DNA of 64,000 nt from Demequinaceae bacterium (GTDB taxonomy: Bacteria; Actinomycetota; Actinomycetes; Actinomycetales; Demequinaceae). This document shows, one piece after another, positions 23,887 through 54,755 of the stretch. The stretch lies in the NCBI GenBank assembly GCA_016933155.1, contig JAFGBM010000005.1, positions 62,001 through 126,000 of the forward strand, written 5' to 3'. The notes under the pieces are model-generated. The model saw only the letters and a list, made by a program, of their open reading frames with translations, did no database searches and was not told the origin of the DNA. Position numbers and translations under genes: made by a program. Each line of letters starts with the position of its first letter. The first letter of the stretch is position 1.

Positions 23887-24312
23887 CTATCCGATATCCA
23901 GGACGGTGGCCTGCCACCGGCCGCCGACGTCCTCGAAGCGCGCCGCGACGGCCCTGACGCGGACCCCGTCGTCGGCGACGATGCTCGTCTCCGCCGCCGC
24001 CTCCGAGACTCGGTAGACCCGGATCCTCTTGATCGCCACCGCCGCCTGACGTCCGCGCCCGGAGCGGAGGGCGAGGGCCCCCTGGCGGGCAAGCGAGGTC
24101 CGGATCTCCGGGGTCACCCACCGGTTGAGCTGGTCGAGGCCGGTCCCGCCGAGAACGACCTCAAGGGCGGTCTTCGCCACCGTACAGGCCAGGGGGGTCG
24201 GATCGCCCAGCGCCCGTCGGGGTCGGACGTAGGGGTTGCTTGGAATCGCGGACGGGTTGAGCGCCCGGACGGATGGGGAGAGGTGTGGCCTCTCCACGGT
24301 CACAACGCTCAT
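23887..24312 (-). CDS. DUF6459/Rv3235-like protein
   Basis: A 141-residue cytosolic protein. After a disordered start it has PLACTVAKTALEVVLGGTG, LNRWVTPEIRTSLARQGALA, a basic stretch, IKRIRVYRVSEAAAETSIV and a final RFEDVGGRWQATVLDIG. This order of segments matches the actinobacterial Rv3235-like (DUF6459) family, usually found just after secA, as here. The function is unknown. The ATG at 24312 is preferred; the frame stays open upstream to 24567 but would cross the transposon end. The region upstream of this gene is where the transposon has inserted. Confidence 0.75.
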   Translation of the reverse strand: MSVVTVERPHLSPSVRALNPSAIPSNPYVRPRRALGDPTPLACTVAKTALEVVLGGTGLDQLNRWVTPEIRTSLARQGALALRSGRGRQAAVAIKRIRVYRVSEAAAETSIVADDGVRVRAVAARFEDVGGRWQATVLDIG

Positions 24313-24438
24313 GGCTTTCCCCCATAGCCCCTGCCCATGGTCCACAGAGTCCCAGTTTTCATAGTTTTCCACCCTCTTAGGAATCGAATGATGCTTGATA
24401 GTGTTATTTGATATCGATAGGTGTAGTGCCAAGAGCCG

Positions 24439-24446
24439 GATTTGTC
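24439..24446. repeat. Left copy of 8-bp target site duplication (GATTTGTC)
   Basis: GATTTGTC occurs directly outside the left terminal repeat here and directly outside the right one at 35906–35913, in the same orientation. An 8-bp duplication is what IS1595-family transposition normally produces. Because the next base is G on both sides, the boundary could be shifted by one base. Confidence 0.9.
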
Positions 24447-24471
24447 GGCGATTAGCGGGATGACACACCCA
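24447..24471 (+). repeat. Left terminal inverted repeat of the transposon (TIR-L)
   Basis: The 25 bases starting GGCGATTAGCGGGATG and ending ACACCCA are the exact reverse complement of 35881–35905. The match stops outside at the target duplication and inside after 25 bases. The Panacea gene's ribosome-binding site AAAGGAGG overlaps the inner end by one base. Confidence 0.95.
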
Positions 24472-24484
24472 AAGGAGGATTGAA

Positions 24485-25225
24485 ATGGCGAAGCAATCGA
24501 AAAGGAACCCCGTTTCCACCAGTTCCAACAGTTCCCCCACTTCCAACAGTTCCACCGGTAGCCACAATGGCCACAGTTACGCCATTTCCAACGGTGCCGC
24601 GAATACACTGAGGAAGGCGGGGAAGAACAGGAAGCGACGAGGAGGATCCGTGGACGCGCGAGCGGCTGTGGCCGCACAGCCGAGATTCAACGAGACGAAG
24701 TTCGCCGAGTTGATGCTGTACGTGGCGAAGAAGATGGAGTGCTCTCCTTCGTACGGGGCGACGATTCTGAACAAGGTGTTGTTCTACTCGGACTTCCGTC
24801 ACTACGAGGTGTATGGGTCGTCCATTACGGGGGCGGAGTACCGACGTCGGGAGTTTGGGCCAGCGCCGCACAAGTTGCTTCCGGTTCGGGATGGTCTAGT
24901 CGAGTCGGGGCGGGCGGCGCTTGCGACGAAGTCGGCGGGGCCCAACGGTCACCAGCAGGTGCGCCTGGAAGCGGTGGGGGAGCCGGACTTGTCGCGGTTC
25001 ACGGGCACGGAGATCGCTGTCGTGGACGAGGTGATCGAGTGGTTGTGGGATCAGACGGCCGTGTCTGCGTCGAATCGTTCCCACGAGTTCTTGGGCTGGC
25101 AGTTGGTCGAACCCAACGATCCGATCCCGTATCAGATGGTGTTTCTGCGCAAGACTCCCGTGACGGATAGTGACAGGGAAACGGCGCGGCATGTCGAGAA
25201 GTTGGTTGTCGCGGCGCACGCGTAG
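24485..25225 (+). CDS. Panacea-domain (SocA/DUF4065) antitoxin-like protein
   Basis: A 246-residue protein. Residues 1–60 are low-complexity Ser/Asn/Thr followed by a basic patch (RKAGKNRKRRGG). From about residue 68 on it has the Panacea fold signature: FAELMLYVAKKM, TILNKVLFYSDFRHYEVYGS, ITGAEYRRREFGPAPHKLLP, and the later VVDEVIEWLWDQTAVSASNR. Panacea proteins (PanA) are antitoxins that neutralise very diverse small toxins encoded next door; the 102-residue gene 11 bases downstream is the obvious candidate. AAAGGAGG lies 6 bases before the ATG at 24485, but GTG 24650, also behind GGAGG, would give a 191-residue Panacea core without the repeats. No promoter is evident inside the repeat, so transcription may start in host DNA. 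Confidence 0.82.
   Translation: MAKQSKRNPVSTSSNSSPTSNSSTGSHNGHSYAISNGAANTLRKAGKNRKRRGGSVDARAAVAAQPRFNETKFAELMLYVAKKMECSPSYGATILNKVLFYSDFRHYEVYGSSITGAEYRRREFGPAPHKLLPVRDGLVESGRAALATKSAGPNGHQQVRLEAVGEPDLSRFTGTEIAVVDEVIEWLWDQTAVSASNRSHEFLGWQLVEPNDPIPYQMVFLRKTPVTDSDRETARHVEKLVVAAHA
24514..24558. repeat. Five tandem 9-bp units (TTCCAMCAG-like) near the left transposon end
   Basis: Five consecutive 9-base units begin TTCC: TTCCACCAG, TTCCAACAG, TTCCCCCAC, TTCCAACAG, TTCCACCGG. They start 43 bases inside TIR-L and lie in the 5' part of the Panacea gene, where they encode the Ser/Thr/Asn-rich start. They could be transposase or antitoxin binding sites, or simply a coding repeat. Confidence 0.7.
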
Positions 25226-25236
25226 GCTTCTGATTT

Positions 25237-25545
25237 GTGGATACCACGTGGGGGTTGATCGACGAGCGTTCCTACGTTGACGCGCTCACGAAGTTGGGGA
25301 TCGAGCAGAAGAAGCTCGACGAGTTCCTTGCCGCATCCACGTTCAGCATCGCACTCCATGGTGCGAACTCGGCGTTCGCGAACGAAGTGTCACCGGGGAT
25401 CTACGTCACGAAGGTGCACTTCCGTGAGCCCGCCCGGTTGCTTCGCCTGTGGTACACGTTGGACCACGCGGAGATGAAAGCACACCTGGTCTACATCGAC
25501 ATTGAGGACTGGCCAAAGTCGGCCGAACAAGACGAACCCTGGTGA
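25237..25545 (+). CDS. Small protein next to the Panacea gene, candidate toxin
   Basis: A 102-residue protein with a GTG start 11 bases after the Panacea stop. It opens MDTTWGLIDERSYVDALTKL, has a helical N-terminal half, and a C-terminal half that could form beta-strands (IYVTKVHFREPARLLRLWYT…MKAHLVYIDIEDW). I do not recognise the family. The size, tight linkage and alternation of helix then strands fit a small toxin neutralised by the upstream protein; a RelE-like fold is possible but not shown. It is followed by a short gap and then oppositely transcribed genes, so the two genes form an isolated pair. Confidence 0.6.
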   Translation: MDTTWGLIDERSYVDALTKLGIEQKKLDEFLAASTFSIALHGANSAFANEVSPGIYVTKVHFREPARLLRLWYTLDHAEMKAHLVYIDIEDWPKSAEQDEPW

Positions 25546-25570
25546 ACCACACTAGGGTCAGGGCGGTCCT

Positions 25571-25702
25571 TCAATCGGCTTTCGTGTCCGCCTCAGCCCG
25601 GACCGCGGCCGCTTCCTCGCCGCTCACCGCCAACAGTGCTCGAAGGAACTCCTCTGGGTCGAGGGTTTCCTCTTCAGTGCTCTCGGGGGCCGTCGCCGTC
25701 AC
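25571..25702 (-). CDS. Possible 43-residue acidic protein
   Basis: A GTG-started frame on the minus strand encodes VTATAPESTEEETLDPEEF followed by LRALLAVSGEEAAAVRAEAD and a short end. The composition is helical and acidic, and third-base choice resembles that of the host. A GAGG sequence lies just before the GTG, though closer than usual. A 13-base palindrome CTACCCGGGGTAG (25712–25724) sits 10 bases upstream and could be an operator. It could be a small regulator or antitoxin-like partner, or not a gene at all. Confidence 0.4.
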   Translation of the reverse strand: MTATAPESTEEETLDPEEFLRALLAVSGEEAAAVRAEADTKAD

Positions 25703-25802
25703 AACCTCATGCTACCCGGGGTAGATCGCGTTTCGGCAGTGCGGGCCGACGGGTCGTCGCGACACGCGCGACCGCATGATGTGAGGCACGGCCGGTTTCG
25801 GG

Positions 25803-25816
25803 GGGTGCTTCCGCAC
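25803..25816. terminator. Possible short hairpin after the VbhA-like gene
   Basis: GGTGC and GCACC pair around a four-base loop to form a compact GC hairpin nine bases after the stop of the minus-strand VbhA-like gene. No T-run follows on that strand, so it is at best a weak terminator or a processing signal. Confidence 0.3.
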
Positions 25817-25824
25817 CGGACCGT

Positions 25825-26076
25825 CTAGACCTGCTTGTCGTGGAACTGGTGCTCCTCGCGCGCAAGGATGCGGGCGTCGGTTCTCCCCACGATCTCGGCG
25901 ATCGCCTCGGCGGTCGTGATCTCGCCGAGTTCAAGCCGCACCACGCGGCGCACGTCGTCCTCGGTCGGCTCCCAGCCTGAGAGGGCGCCGTTTTGGATGG
26001 TGCTGAGCACTCGGTGTTGCGCTGCAGGGTCGAGGTCCGCGTACACGTGTGCGTAACGAGTTTGCCAGTCGTCCAT
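25825..26076 (-). CDS. VbhA-like (Fic antitoxin-type) small protein
   Basis: An 83-residue helical protein (from Met at 26076: MDDWQTRYAHVYADLDPAAQ). The core STIQNGALSGWEPTEDDVRR then LELGEITTAEAIAEIVGR fits the antitoxin VbhA domain, normally three helices that insert an inhibitory S/TxxxE(G/N) motif into a Fic toxin. Here the positions aligning with that motif read N…SG, so the inhibitory Glu is missing. The start at 26076 has AGAGG about 8 bases upstream; Met 26118 would overlap the upstream gene by 20 bases and has no such site. It is the second gene after the 224-residue protein and most likely its partner. Confidence 0.55.
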   Translation of the reverse strand: MDDWQTRYAHVYADLDPAAQHRVLSTIQNGALSGWEPTEDDVRRVVRLELGEITTAEAIAEIVGRTDARILAREEHQFHDKQV

Positions 26077-26098
26077 GGAGTGAGCCTCTCGTTGTGGA

Positions 26099-26773
26099 CT
26101 AGAAGAGTTGTTCGACATCAGAGGGTGAACCCCGCCAGTGGAGGGCCCAATCGACCGCCTTCACGTAGTCGCGGTTGTACTCCGCCGTGTAGACGGCACC
26201 GACCGCCATGTGACGTTCAGCCATGATGGTCGCCGGGGTTGCCGCAATCTGCAAAGACGACGCGGGGGCAATGTAGTCCAAGCCGAGGAGCCACAGTGCC
26301 GTGCACAGCATGCCTACCCTCTGCTCGTCAACCTGCCGTTCCATGAGACCCTCGAAGACCCGATGGGGTACCTCGATGTCTTGAGGTGTGAGCCCCGCCC
26401 CATCAAGGTTCGTCGCGAGTAGAGCCTCCAGGGCCGCCTCCGATGCGAACGCGGGGCTCGGGTCGCGCAGGCCCAGTGCGTCCATAGCCTCGACGGGCGT
26501 GCACTCCATCGCCGTGACCATCTCGCCCACGAGACACTCTGGCCAAGGCAATGTGCGTGCGATGCCACTGAAGTCGAAGTCCGGAGCGTCACCGTGGTTG
26601 TCGTTGCGCCACAGTCGCGCATAGAACGAATGGAGGTCGAAGTCGTACCCCCATGTGCTTCGATGTTCCCAGCCCACGAGGTCGACGCCATCTTGCAGCT
26701 CGTATCCAGGTTTGGCACCGTGGTTGCGTGTCGCACGTTCAAGGGCCGCACCGTGCAGGTCGTCAGCGGTCAA
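26099..26773 (-). CDS. 224-residue protein of unknown function paired with the VbhA-like gene
   Basis: A soluble, acidic protein with no recognised domain. Segments that stand out are TWGYDFDLHSFYARLWRND, ARTLPWPECLVGEMVTAMEC and VGMLCTALWLLGLDYIAPAS. It has no Fic motif HxFx(D/E)GNxR, so despite the VbhA-like neighbour it is not a standard Fic AMP-transferase. It is transcribed with the VbhA-like gene and divergently from the HNH gene over about 100 bases. It may be a toxin of a new type or an unrelated cargo protein; the sequence does not decide. Confidence 0.6.
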   Translation of the reverse strand: MTADDLHGAALERATRNHGAKPGYELQDGVDLVGWEHRSTWGYDFDLHSFYARLWRNDNHGDAPDFDFSGIARTLPWPECLVGEMVTAMECTPVEAMDALGLRDPSPAFASEAALEALLATNLDGAGLTPQDIEVPHRVFEGLMERQVDEQRVGMLCTALWLLGLDYIAPASSLQIAATPATIMAERHMAVGAVYTAEYNRDYVKAVDWALHWRGSPSDVEQLF

Positions 26774-26873
26774 CTCTCGCCCCCTCCAATGGTTGGTGTC
26801 TCAGTCTCGCACCCGCTTGTGACAAGTGGTGGGTCAGGTTGACGGCGCCACCGGGGCGAACGACACTCGGAAC

Positions 26874-27596
26874 ATGTCTGGGATGTGGACCCTGGGTGAG
26901 TGCGCCCACTGTCGTGCCGCGTTGGACCCCGCGAAGCCCTCGTTGTTCTGTTCCGACCGGTGTAGAGACACGGCCAAGGACATCAGGTACTTCCGGCGCT
27001 GCTACCGCGACGGGCGTATCGACGATCCTGGGGTGCGCGCCGCCCTTCGCACACGGATGGCGTTCCACGTCTCAGGCGGATACAACGCCAAGGCACGCCA
27101 CCTGGACGCGGACACACGGCACGCGGTCCTTTCCGCCAACAACGGCTTGTGCGTGAACTGCAACGTCGCTCGAGCGACGCAAGTCGACCACATCGACGGG
27201 CCATCCTCTGACCGGACCAACCTTCAAGGATTGTGCGAGACATGCCACACCAGGAAGACCAACGACCGAATGGTGCCGATGACCGACGAGGACAAGGAGG
27301 TGCGAGACGCCTTCCTTGCGCTGGTCGAACGAGTCGAACCCAAGATGGCTGCCCATGATGAACGTACCTGGGACGGCCGGTGGCGTTCCCTCTTGGCTGA
27401 GACGCGAGAGTGGGCGAGGTCCGAACAGGGGGAGACCTACGTCGGGAAACACGGGTCTTCGAGGGCGGCTTCGACCAAAGAGGGGCTCGAGCAGGATGAT
27501 ACCGACGCCGGCGAATTCGGTGACGGCTCCACCGGGACCGTCGAAGACTATGAGCACGGCGTGTATCTTCAAATGCTCGCTGAACGCGACGACTGA
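26874..27596 (+). CDS. HNH endonuclease with N-terminal zinc finger
   Basis: A 240-residue protein. Near the N-terminus CAHCRAALDPAKPSLFCSDRC forms a zinc-ribbon-like Cys4. The nuclease core at about residues 90–125 reads CVNCNVARATQVDHIDGPSS then NLQGLCETCHTRK: it has the HNH catalytic VDH, the Asn and the final His, stabilised by two CxxC pairs. The C-terminal 100 residues are helical and acidic. HNH proteins of this kind act as nicking or double-strand nucleases in defence or mobile elements. The start is likely ATG 26874, with 26883 as an alternative; an in-frame start at 26826 lacks family-like sequence. Confidence 0.78.
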   Translation: MSGMWTLGECAHCRAALDPAKPSLFCSDRCRDTAKDIRYFRRCYRDGRIDDPGVRAALRTRMAFHVSGGYNAKARHLDADTRHAVLSANNGLCVNCNVARATQVDHIDGPSSDRTNLQGLCETCHTRKTNDRMVPMTDEDKEVRDAFLALVERVEPKMAAHDERTWDGRWRSLLAETREWARSEQGETYVGKHGSSRAASTKEGLEQDDTDAGEFGDGSTGTVEDYEHGVYLQMLAERDD

Positions 27597-28029
27597 ACCT
27601 CTGATGCTCCAGGTGTCAAGACGCGAGTCGGTCAGATCCCCTGCGGTTGTCTACATCCCGTTGCCGTCGCCTTGAGATGCAAGGGTGGGCTCAAAGGCAA
27701 ACGAGCACGGGCCGCAAAGATGACACCGGAAGAGCGAAGCGAGTCGGCGAGGCAAACCGTACGCACTCGGTGGTCGCGAGACGACTGAGAGATTCCCTCG
27801 CCGTGGCGTTTGGCCCGTCGCCTCGTTGTGACCCGCAAGGTTTGGCATACGCATCGCATACCGAAGTTGCCTTGTTGAGTAGCCGTACTCTTTGATTGCT
27901 ACGTCGACGACGCGAGCGGCGATAGACGGTCGCTCGGGCGAGACTTCGTATCGCTCGGTAACGTCCCGAGCGTCAACGGTCGCAGGACACGATCGCCGGC
28001 ATCCCCTGCGGTGCGATACGTTTGCCACG
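27597..28029. other. Non-coding stretch in the transposon before the restriction gene
   Basis: No convincing gene is seen in these 433 bases. They contain a hairpin with arms CGCTCGG and CCGAGCG around a 7-base loop (27952–27972), and two copies of ATCCCCTGCGGT about 360 bases apart (near 27635 and 27999). A TACGTT element at 28017–28022 lies 7 bases before the ATG of the BglII-like gene and could be the -10 of a leaderless promoter, but no good -35 is visible. Confidence 0.5.
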
Positions 28030-28947
28030 ATGACCGAGAACGACGAACCTGACGACCTAGGCGATGGCAACGAATCCGCCGAGGAGGGCGTGGTTGACCT
28101 AGCGGGCGAGGTGCGCGATGTAGCCACGTCCGGCTGGCCCTCCGGCTATGTGTACGGCGCGACTCGCTATGCCGACGTGATTCTGCGGCAATCGTTCCCT
28201 GAGCGGTTCGCTGACCTGATCGCGGCGCTCTCGGCCTTCCGGCCGACTCTCACCGAGTTGCGATCCAGCGGTGGCGGTCGCGCCGTGTTCACGAAGCGGT
28301 TTGACGACTCCCTCGCGGCGATGACGTATGCAGGAGAGACGATCTGGGGAAAGCAGAACGTCACCATCGAGAAGGTCGTCGGCCTCGACGGTACGGCGAT
28401 GCGCCGCACGCGCACGCGGGGCCACGAGATTGACATGTTCGGCAAGGGGACGCTCGCCCAGCCGCTGCCCGGTATTGCGGTCGAGATGGAGTGGAACAAC
28501 AAGGACCCCTTCTACGACCGCGACCTCAACAACTTCCAGGCCTTGCACCACGAAGGCGCGATCGCAGTGGGCGTGATCGTCACGCGAGGCCCTGCGTTGC
28601 AGGCGCTGATCGGGATGACCGTGCGGAGCAAGGATGGCGGCTTGAAGTTCGGCCAGTCCAGCACTCACTGGAGCAAGTTGATCCCGAAGGTGAATCTCGG
28701 TGGCGGCGGCGAATGCCCCCTGCTGCTGATCGGCATCGAGCCCGAGCGCATCGACGGCATCGACCTCGCTCGCCAGGTCAAGAGCAAACTCGAAGCGATG
28801 GATGCGACTCAGGGCAAGGGTGTGTGGCGCTCCCACTGGGCCACTTACGAGGCTGCGCAGGCAGCGTGGAAGGCGATGCGCGAGGAGGCCGAGGCGTTGA
28901 TGCCTCCACTCGCAGAGGAGAAATCCGACGACGAGGGCGAGTCGTAA
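28030..28947 (+). CDS. BglII-family type II restriction endonuclease
   Basis: A 305-residue protein whose middle third carries the BglII/BstYI-type nuclease core: GHEIDMFGKG (Asp135) and IAVEMEWNNKDPFYDRDLNN (Glu152 and Glu154), followed by FQALHHEGAIAVGVIVTRG. In BglII the catalytic acids lie in an Asp…ExQ arrangement, so the Asp…ExE here is consistent with metal-dependent DNA cleavage. Family members recognise sites built on GATC, such as AGATCT or RGATCY. The ATG at 28030 gives an acidic N-terminus; the frame extends upstream to 27892 without conserved-looking sequence. The adenine methyltransferase gene follows 74 bases later, with two AGATCT sites between. Confidence 0.8.
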   Translation: MTENDEPDDLGDGNESAEEGVVDLAGEVRDVATSGWPSGYVYGATRYADVILRQSFPERFADLIAALSAFRPTLTELRSSGGGRAVFTKRFDDSLAAMTYAGETIWGKQNVTIEKVVGLDGTAMRRTRTRGHEIDMFGKGTLAQPLPGIAVEMEWNNKDPFYDRDLNNFQALHHEGAIAVGVIVTRGPALQALIGMTVRSKDGGLKFGQSSTHWSKLIPKVNLGGGGECPLLLIGIEPERIDGIDLARQVKSKLEAMDATQGKGVWRSHWATYEAAQAAWKAMREEAEALMPPLAEEKSDDEGES

Positions 28948-28970
28948 CCGCGCGATGTCGGAGGTGCGTG

Positions 28971-29007
28971 CCAAGATCTAATTATCGACCGCTCCCAAGA
29001 TCTAATT
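28971..29007. repeat. Direct repeat with two AGATCT sites before the methyltransferase gene
   Basis: CCAAGATCTAATT occurs twice, at 28971–28983 and 28995–29007, a spacing of 24 bases. Each copy contains the palindrome AGATCT, the recognition sequence of BglII itself. The repeat lies between the BglII-like nuclease gene and the methyltransferase start (29022), where methylation state or a bound protein could set expression. Confidence 0.8.
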
Positions 29008-29021
29008 GGAGACCCACGCGA

Positions 29022-29858
29022 ATGACGATCACCCAACCTTTACGCGAGGAAATGCCCGCCCCTGCTCTGCCCGAAGTCGCGGGCGGGTTCAAGACGGTCC
29101 TTGCCGATCCGCCATGGCGGTTCACGAACCGCACCGGCAAGGTGGCTCCTGAGCATCGGCGACTCGATCGCTACTCAACGATGAGCCTGGACGCGATCTG
29201 CGACCTGCCGGTGAACGACGCGGTGGCGCACGACGCGCACCTGTACCTCTGGGTACCGAATGCGCTCCTGCCTGCGGGTATGCAGGTGATGGAGGCGTGG
29301 GGCTTCCGGTACGTCTCCAACGTCGTCTGGGCGAAGCGACGCAAGGACGGCGGTCCCGACGGGCGCGGCGTCGGGTTCTACTTCCGCAACGTCACCGAGT
29401 TGATTCTGTTCGGCGTGTGTGGCTCCATGCGCACGCTCGCGCCAGCCCGCAGCCAAGTCAACATGATCGAGAGTCGCAAACGCGAGCACTCCCGTAAGCC
29501 CGACGAGCAGTACGAGTTCATCGAACGATGCTCGCCGGGGCCCTACTTGGAAATGTTCGCGCGACATGCGCGGGCGGGCTGGTCGGCTTGGGGTGACGAG
29601 GCGGGAGAGGATGTGGCGCCTCGGGGTCAGGCGCACCGAGGCTACGCGGGCGGCCCGATTGAGGTGCCGCGTCTCTCCCACCATGCCCGTATGACGGACG
29701 GGCAGACCGACGTGATCGGGAACGAACTGCGGCGCCGCTATCACGCGGGCGCGAGTATTCGGGCTATCTCCGAGGAGACCGGCTACTCAATTCAGAGGGT
29801 GCGCAAGCTCCTGCTGTCCTCGGGGATGACCCTTCGGAGCCGAGGCGGTAGCCGCTAG
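29022..29858 (+). CDS. MT-A70 family adenine-N6 DNA methyltransferase with C-terminal HTH
   Basis: A 278-residue protein. The MT-A70 domain (about residues 20–205) has the catalytic DPPW motif (LADPPWRF, Asp29–Trp32), the LYLWVPNALLPAGMQVMEAW segment, the target-side RKREHSRKPDEQYEFIERC block and GPYLEMFARHARAGWSAWGD. The last 45 residues form a helix-turn-helix (LRRRYHAGASIRAISEETGY then SIQRVRKLLLSSG) of a type common in actinobacterial DNA-binding proteins. As the gene after the BglII-like nuclease it is the likely protective methylase, but the Dam-type enzyme at 31.9 kb could also act on GATC. The HTH could add DNA affinity or autoregulation. Confidence 0.85.
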   Translation: MTITQPLREEMPAPALPEVAGGFKTVLADPPWRFTNRTGKVAPEHRRLDRYSTMSLDAICDLPVNDAVAHDAHLYLWVPNALLPAGMQVMEAWGFRYVSNVVWAKRRKDGGPDGRGVGFYFRNVTELILFGVCGSMRTLAPARSQVNMIESRKREHSRKPDEQYEFIERCSPGPYLEMFARHARAGWSAWGDEAGEDVAPRGQAHRGYAGGPIEVPRLSHHARMTDGQTDVIGNELRRRYHAGASIRAISEETGYSIQRVRKLLLSSGMTLRSRGGSR

Positions 29859-30406
29859 CGCCGCTCTGCTGCCGAACCCATCAATGCCGAGACAAGGTCG
29901 GCAGGCGAGGCACGTCGGCGTCGCGGCGTCCGAGGGGTCCACCCGTTTAGTGTGCCATCGAGGCGACGAGAGCCGCCGCGTTTGTACAGATGTCACCCCC
30001 GGGCAACCGCAGGCGCGGCATGGGGGTGACCAGTATCGGTGCCCCGACCGCGGATGTCCCGGTACTGGCCACCGGTAGCGGTCCCTCGGCACAATGATGC
30101 GCGACGACTACTCGGGCTGGGCATGGAGCCGGTCTGCGACCATTCCGCACACCACCACACGGTTGTCGTGTGAGGTTAGGTTCGCCCGTCGAACCGTGTG
30201 GCTCAAACTGACCCACTACGATCTTGCCGTCCATGTTGTGGAAGATGTGTTCGGTCTGCTCTAGTCGGGCTGTCTCGCGCCCGGTGGCTTGAACTCTAGC
30301 CGTGGAGTCGAGCACCTAGCTCACGCGGCCTGTTTCGTCGAACGGGTGGGATAGGAAGGCGCGCCTATCTTCGTGGTGCCTAGAGACGTTAGTGCGATTA
30401 GATCGA
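29859..30406. other. Non-coding 548-base stretch in the transposon
   Basis: No gene is convincing here. The longest minus-strand frame (29947–30315, 122 codons, GTG start) has no ribosome-binding site and looks compositionally random. The stretch contains a notable inverted repeat at 30155–30201, listed separately. Neighbouring genes converge on it (methyltransferase from the left, DUF4236 from the right), so it may hold terminators or a small RNA. Confidence 0.5.
30155..30201. repeat. Inverted repeat with two mutually exclusive hairpins
   Basis: CCACACGGTT at 30155–30164 is exactly complementary to AACCGTGTGG at 30192–30201, a 10-bp stem over a 27-base loop. The left arm's CACACG can pair instead with CGTGTG at 30166–30171 to form a short 6-bp hairpin with a 5-base loop. 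Such a choice of hairpins resembles an attenuator or a structured RNA, but no T-run marks it as a terminator. Confidence 0.55.
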
Positions 30407-31471
30407 CTAGTCCCGCATGGCATCCAAGGCGTCAACGATCGCTTTCCCGCGATTCGCCTGCGAAAGTTGGATCTCCCAATCGAGGCCGCCTGAGGTCGTC
30501 ACTTCAACGTGTCCATATAGGACGATAGGAAGGACCGGGTTGTTCGCGAACCTTCTGTCGGGGCCTCCACGGAGGTTCACGTATTGCCATGTTTCACCGA
30601 CCTGCGTCGCGTCTGGCAGTACCGGTCCGGGTCCTTCGATGAATTGAGTCGTTGACGCCGTGACGCGGAGAGACGAGTAGGCGACATCGCTGTACTGGGC
30701 TCCTTCGCGGACAAGCACTCTATCGGGAAGGAAATACAAGGCGATCCTGCCAGCGGTCCACGACGGCACCGAGATGTTGGTTACCAGATGCGGTGGACCA
30801 GATTCAGAGCGGGTGATCGGAATCCGTTGCACGACGGTTGAAGCCCCGGCATTCGTTTTCAGTTGGTACGTTGTTCGCACCGCCCCCGACTCAACGACCC
30901 GCCAGAATCCTCGCAAGGTCGTGAGGTTCGCCCAGGCATCGACGAGCGACTGGAATCGGTCGGCTGGGGTGTCTTCGACATCGTAGAAGACGACAACCGA
31001 ACGTCTCGCGCGGTCGCGTTGCGCGAGCCACCAACTGACCGGCGCGCCGGCCGCCCAGACCGCAAGACCCCACGGCAACGTCGCTGCCCCGACAGCGATG
31101 ACAGGAACCGCCACCCAGGGCGCGACGCGGCTCTGCTTGGCCGCCTCGCACAGTTGCGTTGTGAGATCGTCGAAACCCGCTGGTTCGAGCTCCGACACTT
31201 GAGTACCTGTCGCGTCTTCCATGACGACGCCGGACGGCAAATACTCCGGGAGCGACCCCTCACCGGTTCGCACGGTCCGACGACTGCTTCCGCCATGCGG
31301 ATCGAGGGTCGCCCGGTAGAACGCCCCGCCCTTGCCGATCTGAACGTAGTTGCCGCGAGGACCAGTCCCAACCCTGAAGCCTGGGACGCCGGTGCTCACT
31401 CCGAGACCCGACTTACTCAAGTTGAAGCGGAATGGGCCAGCACGAAGACTCTTGCGAACGTAGAACCCCAT
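30407..31471 (-). CDS. DUF4236 domain protein with membrane segment
   Basis: A 354-residue protein. The first 60 residues are a clear DUF4236 domain: MGFYVRKSLRAGPFRFNLSK then SGLGVSTGVPGFRVGTGPRG, a pattern of short beta repeats. A membrane hairpin lies at about residues 115–150 (VAPWVAVPVIAVGAATLPWG, LAVWAAGAPVSWWLA). The C-terminal half is soluble, with a Trp-rich beta pattern (GFWRVVESGAVRTTYQL). DUF4236 proteins occur widely on mobile elements and plasmids with no established role. A GGGGGT sequence precedes the ATG. It is divergent from the zinc-ribbon–Dam operon across 238 bases. Confidence 0.75.
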   Translation of the reverse strand: MGFYVRKSLRAGPFRFNLSKSGLGVSTGVPGFRVGTGPRGNYVQIGKGGAFYRATLDPHGGSSRRTVRTGEGSLPEYLPSGVVMEDATGTQVSELEPAGFDDLTTQLCEAAKQSRVAPWVAVPVIAVGAATLPWGLAVWAAGAPVSWWLAQRDRARRSVVVFYDVEDTPADRFQSLVDAWANLTTLRGFWRVVESGAVRTTYQLKTNAGASTVVQRIPITRSESGPPHLVTNISVPSWTAGRIALYFLPDRVLVREGAQYSDVAYSSLRVTASTTQFIEGPGPVLPDATQVGETWQYVNLRGGPDRRFANNPVLPIVLYGHVEVTTSGGLDWEIQLSQANRGKAIVDALDAMRD

Positions 31472-31674
31472 TCGACCCCCATCGCTAGTCGTGCGACGAA
31501 GTAAGCATGGCAGAGGGCACGCGGTGCCGCTACTCGAGGAATCCGATGAGGACGAGGCTGTCGGTCAAACACCCCTCAACGTCTTGGCCGTTCGACTCGT
31601 GAGGTTCCCCCACCGTCTCCACACACCGTCATCACCCACCCCCGATCACGGCCCCCATGATGATACGGCCCCTC

Positions 31675-31703
31675 TCGACAGGCGTCCGCGTAACGCGTAT
31701 AAT
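31675..31703 (+). promoter_or_regulatory. Sigma-70-type promoter for the zinc-ribbon–Dam operon
   Basis: TCGACA at 31675–31680 and TATAAT at 31698–31703 are separated by 17 bases. The ATG of the next gene begins 6 bases after the -10, so transcription would start at or next to the A of the ATG, giving a leaderless mRNA. No ribosome-binding site is present. Leaderless transcripts are common in actinobacteria. Confidence 0.75.
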
Positions 31704-31709
31704 TGTTAC

Positions 31710-31922
31710 ATGGCTTCTCTCGTTTCGTTGTCTGACGAGACACTTTCCCGTCGCGCTGACGCGATTCGTCGGGAACGTCTGAGGCGCGCCGGGCGTGAGC
31801 GCCGTTGCGCCCGTTGCGGGGACAGGTTCTACGCTCGGGCTGATGCGATCTACTGCACGGGACGTTGCCGGGTCGCCGCGTTTCGTGTGCGCACAGGCAC
31901 TATCGCGGGGAGGTGGACATGA
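31710..31922 (+). CDS. Small zinc-ribbon protein upstream of Dam
   Basis: A 70-residue basic protein: an Arg-rich helical start (MASLVSLSDETLSRRADAIR) followed by a Cys4 zinc ribbon, RCARCGDRFYARADAIYC then TGRCRVAAFR. The pattern CxxC…CxxxC resembles the small DNA- or RNA-binding zinc proteins seen on plasmids and phages. ATG at 31710 is placed directly at the predicted transcription start, so it is probably translated without a leader. The TGA stop overlaps the ATG of the Dam gene by four bases, so the two proteins are made together. Confidence 0.7.
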   Translation: MASLVSLSDETLSRRADAIRRERLRRAGRERRCARCGDRFYARADAIYCTGRCRVAAFRVRTGTIAGRWT

Positions 31923-32857
31923 GCCAGGCGACTGTTGAGGTCGTGACGGAGGGTCGAAAGCCACGACCGCTCGATGACGGAAGCGTCATCTCGATATCCA
32001 CCACCCGCCGCTACGCGGCCGCGAGTCCCTTGCGCTACCCCGGGGGCAAGGCCGCCCTCGCCGGGTTCTTCAAAGGACTGATCGACGATCTGGGTATCGA
32101 GAACCCGCGTTACGTTGAACCGTTCGCCGGGGGCGTTGGAGCTGGCCTGGCACTGCTCGTCGACGATGCGGTCGCCTCCATCGTCATCAACGACGTTGAT
32201 CCGGCGGTCTTCTCGTTCTGGAGCTCCGTGGTGAACGACACCCAGCGATTCCTTGACCTGGTGGTCGATACGCCGGTGACCATTGACGAGTGGCGCCTCC
32301 AACGCGACACGTACCAACGTGCGGACCGCCGTGACCGGCTCGCCTTGGGGTTCGCGTTCTTCTACCTCAACCGAACGAACCGCTCCGGAATCCTCAATGC
32401 GGGAGTGATCGGCGGGCAAGCCCAAGTGGGCAAGTACCGAATCGGCGCACGGTACTACCGCGACGAATTGGTCCGCCGCATCGAAGCGATCGGCGCCTTG
32501 AGGGACCGCATCACGGTTTCGGATGAGGACGGGGGTGACCTCATCCACTCCCTCGTTGTGGACCCGGGCGCGTTCTTCTACATTGACCCGCCATACGTTC
32601 GGATGGGCGACTCCCTGTACCTGAATGCGTTCAACCTTGAGGACCATGCCAACTTGTCCGAGACGATCAACAGTGCATCGACGTCACATTGGGTGCTGAC
32701 GTACGACATCTCCGACTACGTGCGCGAGCTCTACCAAGATCGGTATATCCGCGAGTTCGAGTTGCAGTACAGCGCCTCACGCGCGGGCATCGCACGCGAA
32801 CTACTGATCTCCTCGCCCTCGGTTGAGGCCGTGCTCCGTGCGCGCGCCAGCCGTTAG
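31919..32857 (+). CDS. Dam-type (D12 class) adenine-N6 DNA methyltransferase
   Basis: A 312-residue enzyme that methylates adenine in DNA using S-adenosylmethionine. The D12/Dam features are all present: LRYPGGKA near residue 38, motif I in RYVEPFAGGVGAGLAL (about 64–79), FFYLNRTNRSGILN (148–161) and the catalytic DPPY in FYIDPPY (Asp223–Tyr226). The usual target of this class is GATC, the core of BglII-family sites, so it may protect the host together with the MT-A70 enzyme. GGGGAGG lies just before the ATG at 31919. The stop overlaps that of the convergent ParB-like gene by two bases. Confidence 0.85.
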   Translation: MSQATVEVVTEGRKPRPLDDGSVISISTTRRYAAASPLRYPGGKAALAGFFKGLIDDLGIENPRYVEPFAGGVGAGLALLVDDAVASIVINDVDPAVFSFWSSVVNDTQRFLDLVVDTPVTIDEWRLQRDTYQRADRRDRLALGFAFFYLNRTNRSGILNAGVIGGQAQVGKYRIGARYYRDELVRRIEAIGALRDRITVSDEDGGDLIHSLVVDPGAFFYIDPPYVRMGDSLYLNAFNLEDHANLSETINSASTSHWVLTYDISDYVRELYQDRYIREFELQYSASRAGIARELLISSPSVEAVLRARASR

Positions 32858-34311
32858 GGCTTCGAGGGAGGCGTCAACAGTACTTTGATGAGGGGAGCCA
32901 TGTGCTCCCACGCGGCGTGAACACCCGGGCCCTCGACGAACACGTCGGGTTCGTGGTTGATCCCGTTGAGGATCCACGCTGACTTGCTGTATTGCGCGGC
33001 CGTCTGCCCAGGCTGAGACAGGTTGTTCAGAACCGAGGTCATGTGCTTGTTCGTCGAGAAGTGGCCGCGGGCTTTGGTGATGCTGTCCATGAGCGTCGAG
33101 CCGGGCTTCAGAGGGTCCTTGAGGTCGCGGAAGTACTGCTTGATGGTGCACTCGAGGACGGAGCGTAGGTGGTCACCGGCCGCGTTGGGAAACCTGGTGA
33201 CATCGATCTCAGCCAACTCTTCGAACCGGCGCCGCAACCCGGGCGACTTCAATGCGCTGTAGTCGACCCCAGCAAGGTTCAGGTACGTGGCGGCGTCACC
33301 GCGCTTGGACCGCGGCTTCTTGCCTGAGGTTGCGCCACCTTGGCCCGTGTCGCTCCCGCCCGCAGATCCGGTCCCGGAGCCAGTCCCGGTACCGTCGGAC
33401 GGTTGCTCCTGCTCACCGCCACTTGCCCCTGGTGCCGGGTTCGTGGCTGAGGGCGCATTGCCGGCAAGGGCGGCAAGTTTCGCCACGTACTCGTTGTACT
33501 CCCTGGACTTCGTCTTGAGTATCGGCGTGCGGGTGTTGAGAATGCCAGCCTTCAAGTCGGCAATCAGGCGCCTGACGACGCGAAGCGCACCGCCTGAGAG
33601 TTTGCGGTTCTTCAGCATCCCATCGGAGTCGTGATCGAGCCCCGCGAGGGCACGGATGGCGGGTTTGCGGTACACGTACTCAAGAGATGAAATCTTGAAG
33701 TCGCTGCTGTGCACGAAGGTGTTCAAGTCGTCGTCGCCGAGGTCAGTCTTCCGCAGAAGCTCGAGGACCTCGCCCATCACAATGAAGCGCTGGATTTGGG
33801 AGGCTTCGGCAGGGTACTCGTCCTTGAGGTCAGACAGCGACGTACCGGGCCCCAATTGGGCGTGGAAGAAGATCGCCTGTTGATCCCGATCCCAGCTCTT
33901 CTTGTTCAAACCGATGTGCAGGCGCGCCAACAGGGGCTGTGCGGCCTCACGCGTCGGTGCCACCATCACACGAATCGTTGTGGGGACCACGGCGGTGCTG
34001 TACTTGGCCACGAGGCGCTCAAGTTCCTTCGTTCGCGCCGGGACAGACGTCGGATCGGTCAACCCCTTGAGCGCGGCAACACGTCGGTTGCCCTCCAAGA
34101 CCGCGAACTTCGCGCCCACCTTGACGACGACGGGAATCTCATTGTCGATGTAACCGTCGCGCAAGAAACTGTGGGCAAGGTCCATCACTTCGTCGGCGGC
34201 GTACAGGTACTTCAGTGCTGCCGCTTCCTTGAGCGTCTCTTCGCGGATGCGCGCGTTATGGAGGTCGAGTTGCAGGTCCTCAACCTTCACTTCCTCGATG
34301 GGCCACACCAT
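32854..34311 (-). CDS. ParB/Srx-domain protein with long C-terminal region
   Basis: A 485-residue protein. Residues 1–140 form a ParB-like N-terminal domain with the nucleotide-binding box FAVLEGNRRVAALKGL (Glu73–Arg77). The middle is helical (LGPGTSLSDLKDEYPAEASQ), then comes a low-complexity Gly/Ser/Thr linker with basic KKPRSKRG at about 305–350, then a helical C-terminal domain with RSVLECTIKQYFRDLKD and SAWILNGINHEPDVFV. ParB-box proteins act as CTP switches in plasmid partition, but many defence-island versions exist; this one has no ParA partner. GGAG lies 7 bases before ATG 34311. The C-terminal part resembles helical HEPN-like regions, but no RxxxxH motif is seen. Confidence 0.72.
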   Translation of the reverse strand: MVWPIEEVKVEDLQLDLHNARIREETLKEAAALKYLYAADEVMDLAHSFLRDGYIDNEIPVVVKVGAKFAVLEGNRRVAALKGLTDPTSVPARTKELERLVAKYSTAVVPTTIRVMVAPTREAAQPLLARLHIGLNKKSWDRDQQAIFFHAQLGPGTSLSDLKDEYPAEASQIQRFIVMGEVLELLRKTDLGDDDLNTFVHSSDFKISSLEYVYRKPAIRALAGLDHDSDGMLKNRKLSGGALRVVRRLIADLKAGILNTRTPILKTKSREYNEYVAKLAALAGNAPSATNPAPGASGGEQEQPSDGTGTGSGTGSAGGSDTGQGGATSGKKPRSKRGDAATYLNLAGVDYSALKSPGLRRRFEELAEIDVTRFPNAAGDHLRSVLECTIKQYFRDLKDPLKPGSTLMDSITKARGHFSTNKHMTSVLNNLSQPGQTAAQYSKSAWILNGINHEPDVFVEGPGVHAAWEHMAPLIKVLLTPPSKP

Positions 34312-34344
34312 GGTCGCTCCAAGTCGCCTAGTAGCACGGCCCCC

Positions 34345-34390
34345 GAGCAAACAAGAGCCGCAACGCACTGCGGGGGCCACCGTGCGGCTC
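34345..34390 (-). terminator. Hairpin with T-rich tail after the transposase gene
   Basis: Read on the minus strand, GAGCCGC (34390–34384) pairs with GCGGCTC (34361–34355) and is followed by TTGTTTGCTC. This looks like an intrinsic terminator about 110 bases after the transposase stop and just upstream of the ParB-like gene, separating transposase transcription from the cargo. Confidence 0.55.
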
Positions 34391-34503
34391 CCCCACGAGC
34401 GTATCGAGAAGGCGCCATCCGCGCAGGGTGACGGACCCTCGCACCGACAGCACTAGTAACGTCGGGCTCCGCGCGTTCGCTTGCGGTCGCGGTACGGAAC
34501 CAG

Positions 34504-35496
34504 TCAGGCGACACCGGGAATCGGCCGGTACGTGAGACGGCGGCCGTCGACGTTGTTGATGAGCATCCGCAAACGTTCACTGTCACTCTTGCGGCAGTTC
34601 GTGGCCAGCCACGCGAATTGCTCCAAGTAGCGGTCCAAGTGCCACAGGGACACGTGATGGTGGGTGCCATCGAGTGACCGCTTGAGTTGGGAGAAGAACC
34701 CTTCGGCGGCGTTCGTCGTCGCCCCACCGCGCACCTTGTACTGACCCGCTTTGTGGTTCACGGCTTCGTGGTCGGCGAACTCGGGGGCGAGTTGCCGGTA
34801 GTAACCTGCCGAGTCGGTCCACAAGTGGGTGTTCGGCACGTCAATGTGACGTCCGAGTTGACGACGGAGGTTCTTGCCCGTGACGTCCACGATGCTCATG
34901 GCCCGAACCTCACGGGTCTCATGGTGCACCAACGCCAACACGGGGATCTTGTCCGTCCCACCGAAGGGCCCGCGTGGCTTCACCCGAGGGCCTGACCGGT
35001 GACGGTTCTTCGGATCCCCACCGATCCATGTCTCATCCGCGATCACCGTCCTCCGAAGCAAGCCCGCGACGGGTTCTCGTTTCATCGCTTCCCGAATCCT
35101 GTGGAGCATGTGCCACGCCGACTCGTTCGTGATCCCGTACTTGCGGGACACCTCCCACGCTGACACGCCGTTCTTCGCCGAACACATGTCGAAGATCACG
35201 AGGACCCATGTGCGCAACGGAATCCGCGTCCCATGGAAGATCGTGTTCGTCAGCACCGAGAACTGCCTCCTGCACGACGCGCACTTCCACAGACGCCGCT
35301 CCGTCCTCGAACCCGTGCGAGTTCTCCGAGTCTCACCATTCGCCGGCTTCAAGAAGTAGAACTTCCCCACCACCCCACACAACGGGCACGCCTGCGGTTC
35401 CCCACCCCAACGCAACTCCTCCAGGAAACGGTAAGCGTCGGCCTCCGTCTTCAGACGAGCCGCCAACTTCGGGACCGAGAACTCCTGCTTCTCCAT
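34504..35496 (-). CDS. IS1595-family (ISXO2-like) transposase
   Basis: A 330-residue DDE transposase. It begins with a zinc ribbon (CPLC at 37–40 and CASC at 72–75), then the catalytic core with first Asp154 in VIADETWIGG, second Asp228 in LWTDSAGYY, and Glu265 in the TTNAAEGFFSQLKR motif that marks the ISXO2/IS1595 group. All residues and the full length are present, so it should be active. Start is ATG 35496, with a weak GAAGG site; ATG 35520 would add eight residues and sit exactly at the internal terminal-repeat-like sequence. It is the only transposase in the element. Confidence 0.93.
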   Translation of the reverse strand: MEKQEFSVPKLAARLKTEADAYRFLEELRWGGEPQACPLCGVVGKFYFLKPANGETRRTRTGSRTERRLWKCASCRRQFSVLTNTIFHGTRIPLRTWVLVIFDMCSAKNGVSAWEVSRKYGITNESAWHMLHRIREAMKREPVAGLLRRTVIADETWIGGDPKNRHRSGPRVKPRGPFGGTDKIPVLALVHHETREVRAMSIVDVTGKNLRRQLGRHIDVPNTHLWTDSAGYYRQLAPEFADHEAVNHKAGQYKVRGGATTNAAEGFFSQLKRSLDGTHHHVSLWHLDRYLEQFAWLATNCRKSDSERLRMLINNVDGRRLTYRPIPGVA

Positions 35497-35519
35497 ACCT
35501 TCATTGTCCCAAGAATCCA

Positions 35520-35544
35520 TGGGTGTGTCAATCCGCAGTCCGAT
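35520..35544 (+). repeat. Degenerate third copy of the terminal repeat at the transposase 5' end
   Basis: These 25 bases start TGGGTGTGTCA, the same 11 bases that open the inner end of the right terminal repeat, and match it at 17 of 25 positions in the same orientation. It covers the possible alternative start codon of the transposase. It could be an older right end of the element or a site where the transposase controls its own promoter. Confidence 0.7.
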
Positions 35545-35647
35545 GATCCTTGACCTGACTGGCGGGGCACGGAAAAGACCATCGTGGCCCGACCGCCGGG
35601 CCCTCTTCTCATAGCCCGCGCCCCACCCTTCGCCGGGAGTTGCCCTC

Positions 35648-35830
35648 CTACACCATCTCGCCGAGGCCCTTCTCTCCCGTGTTGCTGCCACACTTCGCGT
35701 TCGGGCACTTCCGGTCCCACACGACCGGGGCGGGGCCACCCGCGAGCGGACGCTCGGCTGGCAGACTCCGGCGGATCTTCTTCACGCCGTCGGAACCGCA
35801 AATACGACAGGGGCCTTCGTAGTCGTCCAT
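35648..35830 (-). CDS. Small zinc-ribbon protein at the right transposon end
   Basis: A 60-residue protein, MDDYEGPCRICGSDGVKKIR at its start and CPNAKCGSN near its end. CxxC plus CxxxxC suggests a single structural zinc ribbon. An AAAGGAC sequence lies 7 bases before the ATG at 35830, and the frame is free of stops at host-like codon use, so it looks real. It sits between the internal repeat copy and TIR-R and is transcribed toward the transposase. Function unknown; small zinc proteins of this type are frequent on mobile elements. Confidence 0.6.
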   Translation of the reverse strand: MDDYEGPCRICGSDGVKKIRRSLPAERPLAGGPAPVVWDRKCPNAKCGSNTGEKGLGEMV

Positions 35831-35880
35831 CGCCTTGTCCTTTCGTTGGCACCCTCATCCTTACACCCAATCCCGACACG

Positions 35881-35905
35881 TGGGTGTGTCATCCCGCTAA
35901 TCGCC
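35881..35905 (-). repeat. Right terminal inverted repeat of the transposon (TIR-R)
   Basis: Exact reverse complement of TIR-L (24447–24471) over 25 bases, starting TGGGTGTGTCATCCCGC and ending in TAATCGCC directly before the target duplication. Confidence 0.95.
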
Positions 35906-35913
35906 GATTTGTC
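35906..35913. repeat. Right copy of 8-bp target site duplication (GATTTGTC)
   Basis: Same GATTTGTC as at 24439–24446, directly outside TIR-R. Joining 24446 to 35914 restores an uninterrupted intergenic sequence between the DUF6459 gene and the RWNDLFGDLE gene. Confidence 0.9.
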
Positions 35914-35962
35914 GAGTCGAATGGGGATGCTGTGGACAACCAAGGTCCCGTACCGTGGGGTT

Positions 35963-36475
35963 GTGCGGTGGAACGACTTGTTCGGTGACCTCGAAGGTCA
36001 GTTCGCCTCAGCCGTCAGCCAGGAGTTTGCGGTCGAGGTCGCGGAACTCACGGTTGCGGAACGGGCGTCGGTCGAATTGGCGGCGCGGCTTCGGGCCGTC
36101 GGATCGGACCAGGTCGTCGTTCACCTCGCTGGCGGTTCGGTGCTTCGGGGTGTGGTTTCGGACGTCACTCCGACCTGGATCCTGATGCGTGAGGGTAGAC
36201 GCGAACACCTCGTGCCCCTGACGGCGATCGCGGCTGTGGTCGGGGCGCCGGATCGTTCCCTGCCTTGGAGCGAGGTCGAACGCCGCCTCTCCCTCGGGCA
36301 CGCGCTTCGCGTCTTGGCGGACGCCGGTGTTCGGGTCGTCATCGAGACTCAAGGGAGCGAGTTTCGGGGAGTGATCTCAGCCGTCGGCGCCGATCATTGC
36401 GATGTCCTGCCGGATTCGGGATCGGATCGGGTGTCCGTGCCATTCTCCGCGGTCAGGCGGGTGACGTCCGCCTAA
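35963..36475 (+). CDS. Actinobacterial RW(D/N)DLFGDLE-type conserved protein
   Basis: A 170-residue soluble protein beginning VRWNDLFGDLEGQFASAVSQ, a start shared by a family found near secA in actinobacteria. Two similar beta-rich segments follow (VVHLAGGSVLRGVVSDVTPT and VVIETQGSEFRGVISAVGAD), each likely a small barrel. Function unknown. GTG at 35963 was chosen; the open frame extends left into the transposon end and cannot be native. Before the insertion this gene and the DUF6459 gene were divergent neighbours with about 175 bases between them. Confidence 0.75.
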   Translation: MRWNDLFGDLEGQFASAVSQEFAVEVAELTVAERASVELAARLRAVGSDQVVVHLAGGSVLRGVVSDVTPTWILMREGRREHLVPLTAIAAVVGAPDRSLPWSEVERRLSLGHALRVLADAGVRVVIETQGSEFRGVISAVGADHCDVLPDSGSDRVSVPFSAVRRVTSA

Positions 36476-54557: not shown

Positions 54558-54611
54558 GCCATTGAGGACCGTCGCCCGCGAAGGAAAGGAGCGTCCGCGT
54601 CGGCGGTAGGG

Positions 54612-54684
54612 TGCCCTCGACAGGAATCGAACCTGCGACCTTCGGTACCGGAAACCGGCGCTCTATCCGCTGAGCTACGAGGGC
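54612..54684 (-). tRNA. tRNA-Arg (anticodon CCG)
   Basis: The minus strand folds into a normal cloverleaf: acceptor GCCCTCG/CGAGGGC, D arm GCTC…GAGC, anticodon loop TTCCGGT with CCG at 54649–54651, T arm GCAGG TTCGAAT CCTGT and discriminator A. It reads CGG arginine codons. One C·A mismatch closes the anticodon stem (27–43). The 3' CCA is not encoded. Confidence 0.93.
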
Positions 54685-54755
54685 ATGTGCGGGCGAACCC
54701 GCAACACGCAAGGCTACCAGGACAACGAACGGCGCGGCTCGGGCGTTGAGTTGTC

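Follow-up and report, generated by a model that had tools for sequence, protein, structure and literature searches.

What carried a block of defence-type genes into an intergenic site of a Demequinaceae genome, and did the block arrive as one piece? The question is posed by positions 24447-35905 of a 64,000-nucleotide stretch of this actinobacterial genome (assembly GCA_016933155.1, contig JAFGBM010000005.1, positions 62,001 to 126,000; hereafter the window). Defence genes cluster in islands and prophages, but the route by which single systems pass from one replicon to another is often obscure. We consider it highly probable that 24447-35905 is a single transposition unit, a passenger-carrying insertion sequence (IS) of the IS1595 family, of the kind called tIS, loaded with cassettes and set between a DUF6459 and a DUF2642 gene. 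Here an element with one transposase and 25-bp ends bears two or more defence cassettes that look complete, and relatives elsewhere bear single ones. If active, it would be a minimal vehicle that could account for scattered single defence systems in chromosomes, and its exact boundaries allow each cassette's role, and the way in which an IS acquires cargo, to be tested.

The unit measures 11,459 bp, and its inverted ends (24447-24471, + strand; 35881-35905, - strand) pair at 25 of 25 bases. Comparison of the flanks showed an 8-bp target-site duplication, GATTTGTC, at 24439-24446, exactly repeated at 35906-35913, so that the perfect termini and identical duplication claimed by a first-pass annotation of this DNA are borne out. 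In a window of equal size and composition, the chance expectation of such a pair is about 9e-10, and identical outer ends with a shared exact 8-bp duplication are what a single insertion of the whole unit leaves behind. With up to three mismatches allowed, the end sequence is present in its own genome (1,885,200 bases, 15 contigs) at the two outer sites only, and none of 148 other relatives contains it. We considered and rejected additional copies or miniature derivatives in this genome, since the end sequence was found twice only. The GC content of the element is 62.9%, versus 67.5% in its surroundings.

The insertion site is intergenic, between the DUF6459 and DUF2642 genes and downstream of secA. 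DUF2642 was matched in 43 of 45 genomes, the element's own counted, and 24 loci were examined, 20 from the same family (L004-L020, L023-L025) and four from other families; seven more same-family matches came without a locus. In the only same-genus genome compared, secA, DUF6459 and DUF2642 are consecutive without the element, with about 266 bp from the conserved DUF6459 block to DUF2642 versus 288 bp in the window once the element is subtracted. A DUF6459 match lies within about 1.2 kb of DUF2642 at all 20 same-family loci; the other-family loci gave a weak DUF6459 match in one case and none within the stretch compared in three. At the level of genes, relatives thus lack the element at this locus, where the first-pass annotation proposed to look for an empty site. 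Together, the duplication and the element-free locus suggest that the whole unit moved, presumably by transposition. The annotation had also called the insertion apparently recent; the perfect ends, the perfect duplication and the single copy, which are the whole basis for this, are suggestive of it in a sample of one genome per species.

These observations also bear on a different history, in which a chromosomal defence island became flanked by the ends of separate IS1595-type elements and the transposase moves only itself. A third, inner copy of the end sequence at 35520-35544, which the first-pass annotation does not mention, means that more than one insertion could have occurred, and at 11.5 kb the unit is nearly double the length of the second-largest delimited element (5,890 bp). 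Yet the outer ends are identical at 25 of 25 bases and share an exact 8-bp duplication, and the locus in relatives lacks the unit, which makes this history highly improbable. We also reject a plain IS lying beside an unrelated island, against which the ends, the duplication and the element-free locus in relatives speak.

The single transposition unit holds one transposase gene (34504-35496, - strand), intact in its reading frame and above the cut-off for three IS1595 models, NCBIfam transpos_IS1595 (NF033547, 1.3e-49), DDE_Tnp_IS1595 (PF12762, 2.7e-29) and Zn_ribbon_IS1595 (PF12760, 4.9e-12), in agreement with the single complete ISXO2-like DDE transposase first proposed. Residues D161, D235 and E272, which we take to be its catalytic triad, are unchanged in all 7 aligned sequences, that of the window among them, as are C44, C47, C79 and C82 (numbered from residue 1 of window 34507-35517, minus strand). 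The IS1595 family has an ISXO2-like DDE domain, an N-terminal zinc ribbon and a single transposase gene, and its usual target-site duplication is 8 bp (PMC8101967); the window element shows all of these features as well as terminal inverted repeats. In the mechanism that we propose, the DDE transposase would recognise both 25-bp ends and move the 11.5-kb DNA to the intergenic site, where a staggered cut at the target would yield the 8-bp duplication.

Passenger-carrying elements of this family are an established kind, named tIS, with MTnSag1/tISSag10, tISCpe8 and ISNha5 as published examples (PMC5704250, PMC11891212). MTnSag1 and tISCpe8 are described as mobilizable and have 25-bp ends and a transposase of IS1595 type (PMC5704250), and ISNha5 is named as a tIS whose passenger is a transcription regulator (PMC11891212). 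The window element resembles them in its IS1595-type DDE transposase, terminal inverted repeats, target duplication and passengers unrelated to transposition, here 12 open reading frames (ORFs) between the ends, and shares the 25-bp end length with MTnSag1 and tISCpe8. It differs in its host, an actinobacterium, and in its load: ISNha5 carries the regulator and tISCpe8, going by the title of its paper, lincomycin resistance, whereas several of its own 12 passenger ORFs form defence or toxin-antitoxin cassettes. The earlier description of an IS1595 vehicle for a defence and maintenance island therefore stands as regards an IS1595-family unit with largely defence- and maintenance-type cargo, but the vehicle is not a new kind. 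What is unusual is the size and the stacking of defence cargo; defence-type cargo itself recurs in relatives, and the cross-phylum recurrence of one system, PD-lambda-5, is also noteworthy. No defence cargo on an IS1595 element was described in the titles and abstract openings searched, a scope that left out most subscription journals, so that its absence from the literature is unproven.

Two of the known tIS suggest a further reading, that the element is mobilizable and undergoes conjugal transfer from an internal origin of transfer (oriT) with helper machinery. MTnSag1 and tISCpe8, described as mobilizable, likewise have 25-bp ends and a transposase of IS1595 type (PMC5704250), and the stretches without an assigned gene at 27597-28029 and 29859-30406 could house an oriT. 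However, family scans of 11 of the 12 passenger ORFs found no relaxase, and we judge this reading improbable.

How representative the single transposition unit is was seen from its relatives. A transposase pattern scan of genome contigs gave two loci, L028 in a Frankiales metagenome-assembled genome (MAG; transposase 61% identical) and L029 in an Acidimicrobiaceae MAG (50%). At 1e-40, a transposase match was found in 10 of 396 genomes of the phylum, the element's own included, and in 32 plasmid records, 30 of them from Pseudosulfitobacter; two scans of viral contigs gave 17 and 58 loci, two common to both. The 90 transposase loci tested comprise the window, 13 genome, three plasmid and 73 viral-contig loci. 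Left out were L070-L074 (L070 and L071 duplicate L028 and L029, and L072-L074 match more weakly within the genome of L029), L031-L041 (the same as L059-L069) and 29 of the 30 Pseudosulfitobacter plasmid matches. The delimiting script accepted ends with at least 19 of 24 matching bases and an exact 8-bp duplication around the transposase, in units from 700 bp upwards. It delimited 37 of the 90 loci and, with the right flank reversed as a control, 0 of 89. Because L100 and L125 are identical, these are 36 distinct elements, from 1,953 to 11,459 bp with a median of 2,808 bp, and the window element is the longest by far. All 37 delimited loci carry passengers; none is a bare IS, which would have been visible given the 700-bp lower limit. 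A looser scan of the other 53 loci, run without a control and including chance-like pairs, gave a number of further end pairs without an exact duplication, again with room for passengers. Among the loci outside the 37, L064, L066 and L076 have ends without an exact duplication and L051 has weak ends (17/24).

The nearest relative found is L028, a 3,140-bp unit whose ends match at 24 of 25 bases and whose duplication is GAGTTGTC. As a side observation, the target duplications GATTTGTC (window 24439-24446) and GAGTTGTC (L028 9953-9960) agree at 7 of 8 bases, which perhaps reflects a target preference of this IS1595 branch. A DNA-level copy of the whole unit was found neither in plasmids nor in phage records. 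Among the 396 phylum genomes, 17 match at the DNA level, the own genome included, and elsewhere they do so in separate pieces only, most of the strongest in the MT-A70 methyltransferase gene described below.

The cargo system that links the window element most clearly to its relatives is a PD-lambda-5-like pair. Its component B is a D12/Dam-type adenine methyltransferase (31919-32857, + strand; PF02086 at 4.1e-19, PADLOC PD-Lambda-5_B at 4.3e-98) and its component A a ParB-like protein (32854-34311, - strand; PADLOC PD-Lambda-5_A at 8.2e-31), encoded by convergent genes that overlap at 32854-32857. The DPPY and AGG motifs of the methyltransferase are invariant in 4 of 4 aligned sequences, and so is the EGNRR motif of the ParB-like protein in 4 of 4, the window's included. 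The ParB-like protein of the first-pass annotation has no Pfam match up to 0.1 and no meaningful match in a PDB sequence search; in PADLOC, the best PD-Lambda-5_A model has its best stretch at residues 5-148 only and another model spans 6-477. PD-lambda-5 was discovered through experimental selection for phage protection, and the original is described as a compact prophage version of a restriction-modification plus Abi system (PMC9519451). The window pair is like it in joining a Dam-type methyltransferase to a ParB-like partner, both PADLOC-matched; it is unlike it in being transposon-borne and convergent, with a divergent A. From these family matches, the pair may be expected to protect against phages.

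The same system occurs at L075 (9904-13719) on the conjugative plasmid pMspAR07d of Mesorhizobium sp. AR07 (NZ_CP080528.1), within an element that likewise has an IS1595-family transposase, ends matching at 23 of 24 bases and an 8-bp duplication, AATTTTTC. It differs from the window element in its size of 3,816 bp, in a cargo of PD-lambda-5 and one 92-aa ORF, in its host phylum and in a transposase 36% identical to ours; the two methyltransferases are 41% identical. That PD-lambda-5 rides on IS1595 elements in different phyla is the best indication that the association recurs. The gene pair is convergent in the window, in a Microbacterium plasmid (L134) and in L190, and runs in the same direction in L075, L149 and L150. 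Two of these loci were noted in their own right: at L134 (8001-10357; NZ_CP072877.1) component A of the convergent pair is split over two annotated ORFs, and at L190 (6001-8408), a viral contig, the convergent pair has a methyltransferase at 56% and a ParB-like protein at 42-48% in two pieces. A single-protein pattern scan of viral contigs gave no relative of the ParB-like protein; L190 was picked up afterwards with the alignment of the methyltransferase, and the neighbouring protein there is 47% identical to the ParB-like protein.

A second cassette, predicted to be a restriction-modification system, pairs a BglII/BstYI-type endonuclease (28030-28947, + strand; PF09195 at 4.6e-27) with an MT-A70-type adenine methyltransferase that ends in a C-terminal HTH_58 helix-turn-helix (29022-29858, + strand; PF05063 at 6.9e-27, PF19575 at 4.9e-12, PADLOC MTase_II at 3.9e-127). 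The methyltransferase is the putative cognate of the BglII-family endonuclease, the pairing being made by adjacency. The endonuclease is matched in 10 plasmid records, where the genes are annotated as BglII/BstYI family, and had nothing in a PDB sequence search at 0.01. As in known systems of this type, an endonuclease above the Pfam BglII cut-off adjoins a DNA methyltransferase; unlike them, the methyltransferase is of MT-A70 type with an added C-terminal helix-turn-helix. Between the endonuclease stop and the methyltransferase start lie two AAGATCTAATT direct repeats (28973-29007), with AGATCT at 28974 and 28998; the window has 10 AGATCT sites. These repeats may be a candidate operator by which the helix-turn-helix-bearing methyltransferase senses its own site. 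Like the PD-lambda-5-like pair, this cassette would be expected to protect against phages.

The remaining passengers are of several kinds. A Panacea (SocA-like antitoxin) protein of 246 aa (24485-25225, + strand; PF13274 at 9.5e-11) is followed by a 102-aa ORF (25237-25545, + strand), a candidate toxin. This partner has no recognised family, of toxins or otherwise, no plasmid homologue, one PADLOC Cas2e row at 0.045 that we take as chance, and a poor structure model (mean predicted local distance difference test, pLDDT, 51.3). The Panacea protein had no relative in a single-protein pattern scan of viral contigs. Then follow a 97-aa VbhA-antitoxin-like ORF (25825-26118, - strand; PF18495 at 8.8e-5, 22.9 bits against a cut-off of 25.9) and, overlapping it, a 224-aa ORF (26099-26773, - strand) with no family in scans, two weak actinobacterial plasmid matches and a poor model (mean pLDDT 44.5). 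An HNH-endonuclease-like protein (26826-27596, + strand; PF01844 at 0.0011, 19.5 bits against 21.4) has weak similarity to ZorE/IscB HNH proteins, and a DUF4236 protein of 354 aa (30407-31471, - strand; PF14020 at 1.4e-12) lies beyond the BglII-type cassette. Small CxxC-bearing ORFs encode 70 aa (31710-31922, + strand), with a weak zinc-ribbon match and overlapping the start of the next gene, and 60 aa (35648-35830, - strand; seen in translation), between the inner and outer right ends. The dozen or so passenger genes first reported are thus confirmed in number. Panacea, BglII, MT-A70 with HTH_58, the D12 methyltransferase and DUF4236 exceed their Pfam cut-offs; HNH and VbhA do not.

Such a mixture could also mean that the cargo consists mainly of maintenance or addiction genes and neutral passengers, with restriction-modification and PD-lambda-5 keeping the element in the cell, not protecting the cell. 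Panacea pairs, VbhA-like operons and restriction-modification systems can all serve as addiction modules, the Panacea pair here is a plausible one, and related elements hold toxin-type genes (PemK, ParE, PIN). On the other hand, it was a selection for phage protection that brought PD-lambda-5 to light (PMC9519451), and we find this explanation rather unlikely as the main one, although the two functions are not mutually exclusive. On the single-unit reading, the families point to a cargo that most likely confers phage resistance on the host and stabilises the element.

Across the related elements, restriction, defence or toxin-type genes occur in at least 12 of the 35 other distinct ones. The passengers of 23 of these were scanned individually and those of seven in a PADLOC batch only, with five outside the scans (L050, L061, L116, L119, L120). 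L059 carries a type I-like methyltransferase (its reading includes 126 unresolved bases) with a specificity-like protein, L060 and L069 a methyltransferase fused to an Mrr-type domain, L045 a type I/IIG-like methyltransferase with ParE, L047 a type I/IIG-like methyltransferase, L057 an SspD-like protein, L067 PemK, L075 PD-lambda-5 A and B, L077 and L121 PIN, L091 DUF1828 (PADLOC candidate PDC-M24B) and L127 Panacea. The remaining elements hold DUF3800, DUF5343, NYN or protease-like proteins, or genes without a match. Outside the strict set, there is a Panacea match between 24/24 ends at L064, a SoFic match at L066 and an SspD-like match at L051.

The inner copy of the end sequence suggests how such an element could grow. 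It lies at 35520-35544 (- strand), matches at 17 of 25 bases, holds an 11-base core present at only three places in the window, and overlaps the likely -35 box of the transposase gene; it contains TTGACA, and 17 bp further on there is a near -10 element. Counted on the sequence, it stops 23 bp before the transposase start codon, and the terminal repeat of L028 stops 24 bp before it. It occupies the place of the terminal repeat in this simpler relative, and we regard it as most probably the ancestral end on the transposase side, which may have been retained as a promoter and perhaps as a transposase-binding operator. In L061 (9417-11460), whose true end starts at 9417, a TTGACACACCCA core at 9733 precedes the start codon (9762) by 17 bp, so that an outer segment beyond an apparent older end is present in two elements at least. 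In L116, L119 and L120, second end-like copies (16-17/24 bases) lie about 57-68 bp inward of the transposase-distal end. We propose that the passengers, namely the PD-lambda-5-like pair, the BglII-type pair, the Panacea pair, the VbhA-like antitoxin operon and others, would be independent mobile cassettes gathered between the transposase and the far end, and that the element would grow through the gain of outer ends and modules, keeping the inner end as a promoter, perhaps an operator. More broadly, and tentatively, we hypothesise that a widespread IS1595 branch, rarely or never bare, acts as a one-cassette carrier of immune and toxin-antitoxin systems across phyla and has acquired certain systems again and again in separate events (among them PD-lambda-5, Panacea, IIG-like methyltransferases and methyltransferase-Mrr fusions); the window element would be a stacked version, grown by new outer ends and modules and with the inner end as a transposase-controlled promoter.

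Several observations weigh against this picture, at the level of the element and of its cargo. The own genome holds no second copy of the element, and the second end copies of L116, L119 and L120 hardly exceed the chance level. Within the cargo, the HNH and VbhA matches are both below cut-off, the window PD-lambda-5 A has a much lower score than its L075 counterpart, with which BLASTP aligns it over the N-terminal part only (31% over 112 aa). The closest PD-lambda-5 relative among the matches listed, L190, is without an IS1595 transposase, as are, within the stretch compared, the PD-lambda-5 pairs of L149 (G332), L150 (G224) and L134. Among the best 80 of 566 viral methyltransferase stretches, L190 included and many of them only distantly related to the Dam-type methyltransferase, a ParB-like match was present in 22 and an IS1595 transposase, within the flank compared, in 0, so the usual vehicle of PD-lambda-5 is not IS1595. 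BglII-type cassettes likewise occur without an IS1595 transposase in the stretch compared at L148 (G405; endonuclease 62-63% identical, beside a methyltransferase), L151 and L152, and the AGATCT repeat before the methyltransferase was not seen at these three other BglII-type loci listed. Cargo found without the ends in relatives, which the first-pass annotation held would refute it, therefore exists for single modules (BglII type, PD-lambda-5), but the whole cargo block had no match in plasmids, in phage records or outside the own genome among the 396 phylum genomes. Finally, 30 of the 35 elements contributed 48 cargo ORFs with a length of at least 150 aa, and at least 9 of these match PADLOC at 1e-10 or better; some of the flank ORFs, 101 in all with no more than three per element, have PADLOC matches too. 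The PADLOC batches gave 107 families for the cargo and 71 for the flanks, the latter with several methyltransferase models and mad3 in two members each, and the defence enrichment of cargo over flanks is not cleanly quantified.

Some smaller observations concern the related elements and the window. L077 (10927-12302) and L121 (10937-12347) carry, by eye, a similar-looking protein with a PIN-domain partner on two IS1595 elements, possibly an undescribed two-gene system. No Rfam match reached the gathering score in 24200-36200, and the sole tRNA of the window lies at 54609-54685. In L045 (968-3898) and L047 (10896-13970) a large methyltransferase is followed by a small ORF, ParE-like in L045 by Pfam and a look-alike in L047, which would make this a recurrent compact pairing on IS1595 elements.

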